From contig CANQAY010000009.1 of the NCBI GenBank assembly GCA_947589025.1, positions 1 to 40,241 on the forward strand: 40,241 nt of DNA, written 5' to 3'. This DNA is from an uncultured Clostridia bacterium (GTDB taxonomy: Bacteria > Bacillota > Clostridia > Christensenellales > UBA1242). Both the position numbers and the translations under genes were made by a program. This document shows positions 3,174 to 35,951 of this stretch, piece after piece (the stretch's first letter is position 1; every line of letters begins with the position of its first letter). Under the pieces are notes generated by a model that was not told where the DNA came from, did not search any database, and saw only the letters and a list, made by a program, of their open reading frames with translations.

Positions 3174-3200
3174 AAAATGGTGGTTTATCCACCATTTTTT
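3172..3200 (+). terminator. Intrinsic terminator of the MBG-repeat gene
   Basis: Perfect 12-bp inverted repeat (AAAAAATGGTGG and its complement) with a TTTAT loop, ending in a T-run. It begins on the stop codon of the surface protein. Confidence 0.85.
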
Positions 3201-3248
3201 CTTTCACTTATTTTAATTTGGCATAAAATGATAGTGGAGGAGGTTAAA

Positions 3249-3572
3249 ATGTCATCACAAGAAATTATACAATTGATATCGGTAATCATCTCCAGTTTAG
3301 TTCCATTAATTGGCTTTATAACCGCACTTGTTAAAGTTATTAGAGAAAAGCAGTGGAACATTTTAAAATCTGCCCTTTGCGATTTTATGATTAGGGCAGA
3401 AGAATTGCCAAACAGCACAGGGGAAGAAAAAAAACAAGCAGTGCTAAAATGGTGTGAAAATTTTTGCAAAACCCAGGGCATAAATTTTGACGCCGAACAG
3501 GTTTCTAATGCCATTGAAACATTAATTAATTTAACCAAAAAGGTTAACAACAAATCTGCACAAGCTAGTTAG
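3249..3572 (+). CDS. Small membrane protein, phage holin LLH-like
   Basis: The 107-residue protein has one N-terminal hydrophobic segment (about residues 5-28), then a charged helical part including AEELPNSTGEEKKQAVLKW. That order, a helix followed by a Glu/Lys-rich segment with GEEKK and a closing amphipathic helix, resembles holins of the LL-H superfamily, which form membrane pores during phage lysis. The start is the ATG at 3249, which follows a strong GGAGGAGG Shine-Dalgarno; an in-frame ATG at 3177 lies inside the preceding terminator and is rejected. No endolysin or other phage gene is adjacent, so this may be a domesticated holin or an unrelated small membrane protein. The assignment rests on pattern only. 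Confidence 0.5.
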   Translation: MSSQEIIQLISVIISSLVPLIGFITALVKVIREKQWNILKSALCDFMIRAEELPNSTGEEKKQAVLKWCENFCKTQGINFDAEQVSNAIETLINLTKKVNNKSAQAS

Positions 3573-33127: not shown

Positions 33128-33147
33128 AAACTAGATTGGAGGAGATA

Positions 33148-34626
33148 ATGGAAAAAAATTCAAGCATCTATTCTGACATTGCAATGCGCACAAATGGCGA
33201 TGTTTATATTGGTGTGGTAGGGCCGGTTAGATGCGGAAAATCTACCTTTATTCAAAAGTTTATTCAAAATTTTGTGCTGCAAAACATAACCAATAAGCAC
33301 GACCGCACGCGCGCTAACGACGAACTTCCACAGGCAAGTGAGGGCACAATGGTTATGACAACCAAACCTCAATTTGTGCCTAACGAGGCAGTAAAAATTA
33401 AGGTTGGCTCAACATCAATGTCGGTTAGGCTTATTGATAGCGTTGGCTTTATGGTGGATGGAGCCACGGGCGCATATGAAAACGACAAACCCCGCCTTGT
33501 TAAAACCCCATGGAGCAATGAGGCAATTCCGTTTGTTCAAGCGGCTGTTATTGGCACAGAAAAGGTTATTAAAGAGCATTCCACAATAGCCATAGCGCTA
33601 ACAACAGATGGCAGTTTTACAAACATTCCGCGCGCAAATTATGTGGATGCAGAAAAACGCACAATAGCCACCTTAAAGCAAACGGGCAAACCCTTTGTTG
33701 TGGTGCTTAACACAGTTAACCCAACCGATGAACAAGTGCTTTCGTTAAAAGAAAGCATGCAGCAAGAATATTCAGTGCCAGTTATTGCAATGAATGTAAA
33801 TGAATTAAATAAGGATAGTGTAGATAAAATTATGACAGAAATTTTAAAAGAATTTCCACTTGAAGTGGTTAACATAAAAATGCCAAAATGGTTAAAGCCA
33901 TTAAGTGAAGATAACGCCACCATAAAAGAAATTTTGGATACAGTTAGCGATGCCATTGGCGAAAGTTTAAGAGTGGGCGAATATAATTCAAACAAAGTGC
34001 TTTTTGAAAACAGCGATAATTTTGAACCAATTTTAAACAGCAACATAGAGCTGGGCAGTGGTGCAGTTACATTTGAAATTGTGCCAAAAAACGGCTTGTT
34101 TTATAGGGTTTTAAGCGAGCAATGCGGCACCGAAATTAAAGACGATTTTGAACTTGTTAACTGCCTTAAAGATTTAACCTATGCAAAACATAAATTTGAT
34201 AAACTTAGTTCAGCATTAGAGCAAGTAAATGAAACCGGTTATGGCGTTGTTGTGCCAACCCTTGACGAACTTGAATTAAAAGAGCCAGAAATTGTTAGGC
34301 AGGGTGGCAGATGCGGGGTTAGGTTAAAAGCCACTGCACCAAGTTTGCACATTATGAAAGTGGATGTTGAAACGGAAGTTAGCCCAATTGTTGGTGGCTA
34401 TGAACAGAGCGAAGAATTGGTTAAACATTTAATGCAACAGTTTGAAAGCAACCCACAAGAAATTTACAAAACAAATATGTTTGGCAAAACGTTGGAAAGT
34501 TTGGTTAGCGATGGCTTAAACACAAAACTAAATTCCATGCCAGTAAACTTGCAAAATAAATTAAGAAAAACTTTATCTCGCATAGTTAACGAAGGCAAGG
34601 GCGGCATACTTTGCATCTTGCTTTAA
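33148..34626 (+). CDS. spoIVA: Stage IV sporulation protein A, spore-coat morphogenetic ATPase
   Basis: SpoIVA (492 residues, the same length as in Bacillus subtilis) hydrolyses ATP to polymerise on the forespore surface and form the coat basement layer. The N-terminal SIYSDIAMRTNGDVYIGVVG leads into Walker A GPVRCGKST (25-33). IDSVGFMVDGATGA is the TRAFAC-type switch region, and VVLNTVNPTDEQV follows. The C-terminal GGILCILL resembles the conserved membrane-associated end. The ATG at 33148 has a GGAGGAG site; an in-frame upstream start at 33136 lies within the Shine-Dalgarno region. Finding it shows that the organism, or a recent ancestor, forms endospores. Confidence 0.97.
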   Translation: MEKNSSIYSDIAMRTNGDVYIGVVGPVRCGKSTFIQKFIQNFVLQNITNKHDRTRANDELPQASEGTMVMTTKPQFVPNEAVKIKVGSTSMSVRLIDSVGFMVDGATGAYENDKPRLVKTPWSNEAIPFVQAAVIGTEKVIKEHSTIAIALTTDGSFTNIPRANYVDAEKRTIATLKQTGKPFVVVLNTVNPTDEQVLSLKESMQQEYSVPVIAMNVNELNKDSVDKIMTEILKEFPLEVVNIKMPKWLKPLSEDNATIKEILDTVSDAIGESLRVGEYNSNKVLFENSDNFEPILNSNIELGSGAVTFEIVPKNGLFYRVLSEQCGTEIKDDFELVNCLKDLTYAKHKFDKLSSALEQVNETGYGVVVPTLDELELKEPEIVRQGGRCGVRLKATAPSLHIMKVDVETEVSPIVGGYEQSEELVKHLMQQFESNPQEIYKTNMFGKTLESLVSDGLNTKLNSMPVNLQNKLRKTLSRIVNEGKGGILCILL

Positions 34627-34650
34627 AGTGCATTTTATTTGCACTTTTTT
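34625..34650 (+). terminator. Terminator of spoIVA
   Basis: AAAGTGCA, 7-nt loop, TGCACTTT, then T-run; overlaps the stop codon. Confidence 0.8.
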
Positions 34651-34720
34651 GTTTGTTAAAATAAAAATAAAAAATTTTTAAAAAAATTTAAAAAAATTTT
34701 AAAAAACTATTAAAAATCGT

Positions 34721-34749
34721 TTGTATTTATTTTTTAATAGTGATAAAAT
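34721..34749 (+). promoter_or_regulatory. Promoter of the histone-H1-like membrane protein gene
   Basis: TTGTAT (34721-34726), 17-bp spacer and extended -10 TGATAAAAT (hexamer 34744-34749), ahead of an AAGGGGGAG site. Confidence 0.65.
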
Positions 34750-34780
34750 GCTTATATATACTTTTAAGGGGGAGACTCAT

Positions 34781-35326
34781 ATGATGGAATTCATTTCTCA
34801 AAATTGGTGGTGGATTGTAATAATCATTGCAGTCATCATCGTCGCTTTAATCATCGTTCTTGTTCTTATGAATAAGCGTGATAAAAAAATCATGTCTGAT
34901 TTCCAAGAAAAAGTATTGGCTGTTGAAAGCGAACAAATGGAGGTGAACACCGTTCCAGAGACAAATGCTATTGAAGTACAAAAGGAGGATAAAATGAAAC
35001 AAGTACAAAAAGCGAATGTCACCAGCACTGCAACAACAAAAGTTGCTCCTGCTAAAACTGCAGCTAAACCAGCTGCAAAGAAAACTGCTGCTAAACCTGC
35101 AGCAAAAACTGTAGCTGCTAAAGCTCCAGCTAAAAAAGTTGCAACAAAAACAACTGCAACTAAAACAACTACTACAAAAACTGTAGCAACAAAAGCTCCA
35201 GCTAAAAAAGTTTCAACAAAAACTGTAGCAACTAAAGCTCCTGCTAAAACTGCTGCTAAACCAGCTGCAAAGAAAGTTGCTGCTAAACCAGCTGCTAAAA
35301 AAGCTCCAGCTAAAAAAGCTAAATAG
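34781..35326 (+). CDS. Membrane-tethered Lys/Ala/Pro-rich histone-H1-like protein with an internal start
   Basis: The full-length form has 181 residues: a helix at 9-30 after WWW, a short acidic linker (about 40-70), then a tail from about 85 made of AAKPAAKK, KAPAKK and TKTT units, similar to the C-terminal tail of histone H1 and bacterial H1-like proteins. Such tails bind DNA without sequence preference. A perfect AAAGGAGG lies five bases before an in-frame ATG at 34994, residue 72. Starting there gives a soluble 110-residue tail-only protein. The gene may therefore encode both a membrane-tethered and a free DNA-binding form. The tail might instead bind acidic wall polymers. Confidence 0.75.
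   Translation: MMEFISQNWWWIVIIIAVIIVALIIVLVLMNKRDKKIMSDFQEKVLAVESEQMEVNTVPETNAIEVQKEDKMKQVQKANVTSTATTKVAPAKTAAKPAAKKTAAKPAAKTVAAKAPAKKVATKTTATKTTTTKTVATKAPAKKVSTKTVATKAPAKTAAKPAAKKVAAKPAAKKAPAKKAK
34981..34996 (+). promoter_or_regulatory. Internal Shine-Dalgarno and in-frame ATG
   Basis: AAAGGAGG (34981-34988), 5-nt spacer, ATG (34994-34996) in the frame of the H1-like gene. It encodes QKEDKM in the long form, and is as strong as any Shine-Dalgarno in the window. Confidence 0.7.
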
Positions 35327-35330
35327 TAGT

Positions 35331-35358
35331 AAAAAAGTTCCCATTAGGGAATTTTTTT
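35331..35358 (+). terminator. Terminator of the H1-like gene
   Basis: AAAAAAGTTCCC, loop ATTA, GGGAATTTTTTT (one G-T pair). Confidence 0.8.
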
Positions 35359-35375
35359 ATGCCCTTAACATTTTG

Positions 35376-35404
35376 TTTACAAATAAAATTTAATGTGCTA
35401 ACAT
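35376..35404 (+). promoter_or_regulatory. Promoter of rsmD, probably leaderless
   Basis: TTTACA (35376-35381), 17-bp spacer, TAACAT (35399-35404), then 7 nt to the ATG at 35412. Confidence 0.6.
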
Positions 35405-35411
35405 AGTTTAT

Positions 35412-35951
35412 ATGAGAGTAGTATCAGGTAAATATCGCGGCAAAAAACTAAAAGAATTTGACATCTCTTCCACCCGCCCAACATTGGATAGGGTTAAAGA
35501 GGCCATGTTTAACTTAATTCAGTTTGATGTGCAAAATTCAGTTGTGTTAGATTTGTTTTCTGGCACAGGGGCTTTGGGGTTGGAGGCAATTTCTCGCGGC
35601 GCAAAAATAACTTATTTAATTGATAGCAATGCAGAAGCAATAAAACTTATTAAGCAAAATTTGGCAAATGTTACTGAGCAATATAAACTTATTAAAGAAG
35701 ATGCAATTACTTTTTTAAACAAATGCAATTTAAAATTTGATATTGTGCTGTTAGATCCTCCTTTTAATTCCAACTTGGGCATTGAAGCAATTAACATTAT
35801 TATAAAAAACAACATGCTAAACAACAATGGCATAATTGTGTTTGAAACCAGCATAGATAAACCATTTGTGTTAGAGCATAAAAACTATAGCGTAAAATTT
35901 AAAAAATATGGCAGCGTGGCGCTTTACAAAATTTCAAAAGAGGAAGAATGA
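35412..35951 (+). CDS. rsmD: 16S rRNA (guanine966-N2)-methyltransferase RsmD
   Basis: RsmD (179 residues) methylates G966 of 16S rRNA during 30S assembly with S-adenosylmethionine. The N-terminal RVVSGKYRGKKL and STRPTLDRVKEAMFN are family hallmarks. The SAM motif I is VLDLFSGTGALGLEA, and the catalytic motif IV is VLLDPPF. FETSIDKP and the last strands are complete. It probably has a leaderless mRNA. The TGA overlaps the next ATG by 4 bp, so rsmD and the glycosylase gene are coupled. Confidence 0.95.
   Translation: MRVVSGKYRGKKLKEFDISSTRPTLDRVKEAMFNLIQFDVQNSVVLDLFSGTGALGLEAISRGAKITYLIDSNAEAIKLIKQNLANVTEQYKLIKEDAITFLNKCNLKFDIVLLDPPFNSNLGIEAINIIIKNNMLNNNGIIVFETSIDKPFVLEHKNYSVKFKKYGSVALYKISKEEE

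Follow-up and report, generated by a model that had tools for sequence, protein, structure and literature searches.

Rv3852 (annotated 'H-NS') of M. tuberculosis is a membrane-tethered nucleoid protein that carries KAAKPAAK repeats. It stays tethered to the membrane as it binds DNA, and removal of its transmembrane (TM) helix results in condensation of the nucleoid (PMC8233713). Few nucleoid proteins are membrane-tethered, and the way in which bacterial chromosomes are tied to the membrane is an open question. Work in Salmonella has described proteoform pairs that arise from in-frame internal starts, SsaQ among them. Some of these pairs are predicted to differ in location; the short form of YdgA, for example, is predicted to lose its membrane attachment (PMC11005335). 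Since Shine-Dalgarno (SD)-like sequences are generally depleted within bacterial genes (PMC5100845), a conserved SD inside a gene is notable.

The window considered here, a stretch of 40,241 nucleotides, comes from the 0.96 Mb genome of a gut Clostridia bacterium. An original prediction held that one gene in this window, located just downstream of spoIVA, encodes both a membrane-tethered and a free histone H1-like protein. The analysis that follows makes this two-product reading of the gene likely.

Layout of the long form and character of its tail

The open reading frame at 34781-35326 on the forward strand (ATG at 34781, stop codon at 35324-35326) encodes a protein of 181 residues, the long form, which has orthologues in the genus. 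As originally predicted, it consists of a membrane helix, a linker and an H1-like tail. The TM helix, WWWIVIIIAVIIVALIIVLVLM (residues 9-30; 34805-34870), was assigned from a hydrophobic stretch with a positively charged flank and is kept in the orthologue alignment. It is followed by NKRDKK, and because the positive charges come after the helix, the positive-inside rule predicts that the tail lies in the cytoplasm. The linker (residues 31-71; 34871-34993) is acidic, with a net charge of -6 over residues 38-71. The remainder (residues 72-181; 34994-35326) is free of Asp and Glu, and it is exactly the 110-residue portion that the internal ATG would leave as a short form (10.9 kDa, calculated pI 11.5). 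Thus, the short form would be the H1-like tail by itself, while the long form has a predicted membrane anchor, as the original prediction had it. The earlier description of the tail as Lys/Ala/Pro-rich is correct for Lys (27%) and Ala (32%), but Thr (19%) exceeds Pro (8%). The tail is of low complexity, and it is not expected to fold.

The best curated NCBIfam match of the protein is NF038053, a histone H1-like DNA-binding protein (24.4 bits, E 3e-5, below the cut-off of 80 bits). The HC2 family profile (PF07382) gives 16.9 bits (E 0.007), which is likewise below its curated cut-off of 40 bits. Together with the composition, these sub-cut-off matches to H1 families suggest that the ligand of the tail is DNA. 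The leading alternative retains both products but assigns them a different main partner (RNA or ribosomes, polyphosphate, or acidic lipid or cell-wall polymers), which the long form would then tether. The H1-like protein AlgP acts in organising polyphosphate granules (PMC9239181), and HU is already encoded twice in this genome. In addition, ribosomal protein S9 of the same genome (G000:C6, around 22 kb; L140:1350-2121) has an N-terminal Lys/Ala/Pro/Glu extension of about 125 residues with PAKK repeats. H1-like segments are consequently present on more than one protein in the genome, and since S9 also has PAKK-type segments, RNA or a different polyanion is a conceivable ligand of the tail. Against a ligand other than DNA stand the resemblance of the composition to that of H1-type DNA-binding tails and the identity of the best curated match, NF038053, sub-threshold as it is; we consider such a ligand unlikely.

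The internal start and its conservation

Inside the linker, the perfect SD sequence AAAGGAGG (34981-34988, forward strand) is separated by a 5-nt spacer, ATAAA, from an in-frame ATG at 34994-34996, which confirms the arrangement originally described; an SD and a start codon thus lie at a proper spacing, in frame, within a longer open reading frame. The internal SD has a duplex energy of -12.2 kcal/mol and an opening cost of 3.2 kcal/mol, versus -10.7 and 8.0 kcal/mol for the primary SD, AAGGGGGAG (34766-34774). (A stronger SD-like sequence, GGAGGTGA, at codons 54-56 is not conserved, and no start codon is suitably spaced from it.) The pattern AGGAGG-N3-9-ATG is seen five times in the window, where 0.5 is expected, and the other four occurrences are fitting starts of open reading frames. 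Genome-wide (0.96 Mb), AAAGGAGG-N4-6-ATG is found at 13 sites and a reversed control pattern at none. At 12 of the 13, no more than 25 open codons lie upstream; 11 of these open a reading frame of at least 90 codons and one opens an 11-codon frame. Only at ATG 34994 does the open frame extend far upstream, for 97 codons. Because it is the sole site of the 13 that lies deep inside an open frame, the internal site is not attributable to chance, as had been argued at the outset. Elsewhere in the window, an AGGAGG precedes ATG 3249, in frame with the open reading frame at 3177-3572 whose first ATG is at 3177; the real start of that frame may be 3249.

Conservation of the site was examined in a subclade of eight genomes (G000 and G022-G028; SpoIVA tree support 76/93, with two well-supported halves). 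The sequence GTA CAA AAG GAG GAT NNN ATG is kept in all eight, where NNN is codon 71, which lies between the SD and the ATG and varies among Lys, Asn and Glu. Among the invariant runs of the aligned anchor part, the longest is the 15-nt block GTACAAAAGGAGGAT (34976-34990, forward strand) within this sequence. Where five flanking genes are aligned (about 4.4 kb, 5-8 genomes), no invariant stretch reaches 12 nt. The synonymous positions of AAG, GAG and GAT are all fixed in 8/8 genomes. In four flanking genes represented in at least six genomes, codon identity is held at 18% of 300 invariant-residue columns, and it is never held as AAG at invariant Lys columns (0/25) or as GAG at invariant Glu columns (0/13). 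Because synonymous positions are frozen at the block and rarely in the neighbours, the simplest reading is that the nucleotides themselves are under selection, beyond what the peptide alone would impose. This fixation supports the claim of two products from one gene. Conservation of the SD at synonymous positions, which had been put forward as a check among homologues, therefore holds within the subclade, though not across the genus. The eight genomes form one lineage and include two near-copies, so that the subclade represents one strong case rather than eight.

Across the subclade, duplex energies calculated with an assumed Bacillus-type anti-SD, which may differ from the host's own, range from -12.2 to -14.3 kcal/mol for the internal site versus -10.7 to -13.5 kcal/mol for the primary site. 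The internal pairing is at least as strong as the primary pairing in seven of the eight genomes; the exception is G026, with the stronger duplex at the primary site. The predicted opening cost is 2.9-4.6 kcal/mol at the internal site versus 6.6-11.3 kcal/mol at the primary one, such that the internal site is predicted to be the more accessible in every genome. In half of the subclade (L003/L008, L009-L011), the basic tail also contains a Cys-rich insert (for example, SCGCKKAECKPAP) and an AMAVAK segment.

Orthologues of the anchored protein are present in 31 of the 34 genomes of the genus, a count that leaves out a weak match in G011; in G007, spoIVA is seen only as a fragment. In most regions that reach the neighbours, the order is spoIVA, the orthologue, and then rsmD or a glycosylase gene. 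The TM helix is conserved, the anchor region shows many synonymous changes, and tail lengths are very different; as judged from the alignment, the family evolves as a protein. Most of the genus has, in addition, a second small gene (about 60-90 residues) with a related TM segment, an MDKKDR motif and no basic tail, which is positioned between the H1-like gene and the rsmD/glycosylase gene (L062-L078 and others). It is missing in the eight-genome subclade and in some other members. A link between its loss and the internal start was considered, but some loci outside the subclade also lack the gene and no conclusion was drawn.

About 20 orthologues of the genus outside the subclade do not have the internal site. 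Since most other members are without it, the internal start is a lineage trait. Outside the subclade, internal sites are found in G021 (AAAGGAGGAGGGTAAAATG, -13.1 kcal/mol) and G002 (AAAAAGGAGAATGATAATATG, -10.6 kcal/mol), with a weaker one in G003 (-9.4 kcal/mol). In the whole non-subclade set, 3 of the 11 in-frame ATGs beyond residue 60 have a strong SD, whereas 1.1% of tail positions reach -9.4 kcal/mol (nominal P 2e-4, for a threshold picked after seeing the data). Past residue 40, G009 has a single ATG, at residue 60, with an SD energy of -8.6 kcal/mol. In G021 (121 versus 123) and in G003 (118 versus 113), the ATG lies 2-5 residues from the statistically placed change from acid-containing to acid-poor sequence, and in the subclade, too, the start coincides with the acid-to-basic changepoint. 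G002 has its global break away from the ATG (96 versus 234), but the part after the ATG has a charge of +0.27 per residue; after all of the strong internal sites, the tails carry +0.26 to +0.31 per residue. The start thus tends to coincide with the edge of the basic domain. The sites in G021, G002 and G003 could have arisen independently or could be what remains of an older site; they share [KQ]KE[DEN]..M. The site is absent from the sister of G002, which argues that it is easily gained or lost.

These comparisons also bear on explanations in which a single product is made. The SD-like block could act as an elongation pause that aids co-translational insertion of the helix, since it is located 38-41 codons past the helix, approximately the length of the exit tunnel, and pausing at SD-like sequences is a proposed effect (see the discussion in PMC5100845). 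However, a pause leaves the invariant ATG at 5 nt unexplained, the sites in G021 and G002 are 90-200 codons past the helix, and orthologues with the same helix do not have the block. SD pausing is itself disputed (Mohammad 2016, as cited in PMC5100845), and we regard this explanation as improbable. To much the same degree, it is hard to credit that the peptide VQKEDxM is kept for protein function, perhaps as a binding or cleavage motif, with the SD as a by-product. Although residues VQKED and M are also invariant in the subclade, the residue between D and M is variable, other genus members have no VQKEDxM, and the frozen synonymous positions specify the minority codons AAG and GAG, which are never invariant in the neighbours. 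A vestigial start left by fusion of a separate H1-like gene to an anchor gene would account for a strong, complete start at a domain boundary, but it is very improbable, given that anchor and basic tail already occur together, without the site, in orthologues throughout the genus, that a vestigial site would not remain invariant at synonymous positions, and that a search of the genome with a tail query and a Lys-motif pattern found no stand-alone tail gene, only the H1-like gene, the S9 extension and unrelated frames.

The transcription unit and a proposed mechanism

Upstream of the H1-like gene, and outside its transcription unit, is spoIVA (33136-34626, forward strand; Pfam SpoIVA ATPase, middle and C-terminal domains, E 3e-101, 5e-57 and 6e-30). 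A sequence scan places a terminator-like hairpin with a T-run immediately after it (34625-34647). Alignment of the upstream regions of 8 and 13 orthologues reveals a σA-type extended -10 promoter at 34720-34749 (TTTGTA/TTGTAT, 17 nt, TG-A-TAAAAT), the form of which, TTTGTA-N17-TGnTAnAAT, is conserved genus-wide. The unit is closed before rsmD by a terminator hairpin at 35330-35358 (13 bp stem, -13.7 kcal/mol, T-run). By these signals, the H1-like gene is a monocistronic unit of the vegetative type. The original prediction had noted that the gene directly follows spoIVA and had imagined a role in the spore. The order stands, but with a σA-type promoter of its own and a terminator on each side, the link to spoIVA looks incidental; at the sequence level, neither a sporulation sigma promoter nor membership in a spoIVA operon was found, and the genus-wide promoter and intervening terminator speak against a spore role. 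No Rfam elements were found in 34500-35500. The one candidate internal promoter is a weak match (9/12) at 34795-34824, and the region has four promoter-like sites versus 2.3 (sd 1.5) in shuffled sequence.

We favor, with a probability of about 0.6, the following scheme for the gene. A housekeeping-type promoter would give a single mRNA that carries two starts in the same frame. The first, at 34781, would yield the 181-residue protein, held by its N-terminal signal-anchor helix with the basic tail in the cytoplasm, while initiation at 34994, at a predicted stronger and more open ribosome site, would yield the 110-residue basic tail only. The free tail would most likely coat or condense the nucleoid, as other bacterial H1-like proteins do, a role that is plausible for such a tail. 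At the membrane, the anchored form would retain the polyanion that the free tail binds, in all likelihood DNA, and how often each start is used relative to the other would then set nucleoid compaction or membrane attachment. We infer the use of start 34994 in cells, the DNA ligand and the balance of the two forms. A more general proposal, which we advance tentatively and at somewhat less than even odds, is that a selected nested start at the border between the anchor and acidic linker and the tail, arising perhaps several times in the genus, sets the membrane-tied share of a chromosome-binding tail.

In this scheme, a very small gut Clostridia genome, of about 1 Mb, seems to hold a tether and a free form in one gene. 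Simple synonymous mutations should remove one form and spare the other. More broadly, comparison of synonymous positions can expose nested products that gene callers likely overlook.

Comparison with known systems

The TM-linker-DUF2188 proteins found in other genera of the family share the N-terminal TM helix and a charged, low-complexity linker. Unlike the H1-like protein, they have a DUF2188 domain at the C-terminus (E 2e-13 and 2e-7), although the one from G161 has a Lys/Thr/Ala/Pro stretch. No homologues of spoIVA, rsmD or other genes of the window were found beside the TM-DUF2188 loci, and a relationship to the H1-like protein is uncertain. Internal starts in these genes are only weak; the clearest, a GAGG-8-ATG in one genus (L116, L117, L118, L124), is just before the DUF2188 domain and is possibly another nested start.

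HC2 (PF07382), the Burkholderia-type H1-like protein (NF038053) and AlgP have the same kind of Lys/Ala/Pro-rich, low-complexity basic tail. These proteins are soluble and have no anchor, whereas the Clostridia long form has a predicted one. With Salmonella SsaQ and YdgA, the H1-like gene shares the principle of one gene with two starts and a possible change of location; no H1-like protein is among the proteoform examples considered (PMC11005335), and the Clostridia pair is predicted from sequence.

The closest precedent is Rv3852, with which the Clostridia protein has in common, as read from its sequence, a single TM helix and H1-like Lys/Ala/Pro repeats. The original statement that membrane-anchored H1-like tails are rarely described is fair, with the proviso that Rv3852 had already been described as a membrane-tethered nucleoid protein (PMC8233713). 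The order of domains differs, as the TM helix is C-terminal in Rv3852 and N-terminal in the Clostridia protein. In addition, the TM-less Rv3852 is an engineered deletion and is not reported to arise from an internal start, whereas the Clostridia short form, predicted from sequence, seems a natural counterpart of that deletion. The two proteins come from unrelated lineages and homology between them is not shown. By analogy, then, the Clostridia protein would work like Rv3852 and yet not be a member of its kind.
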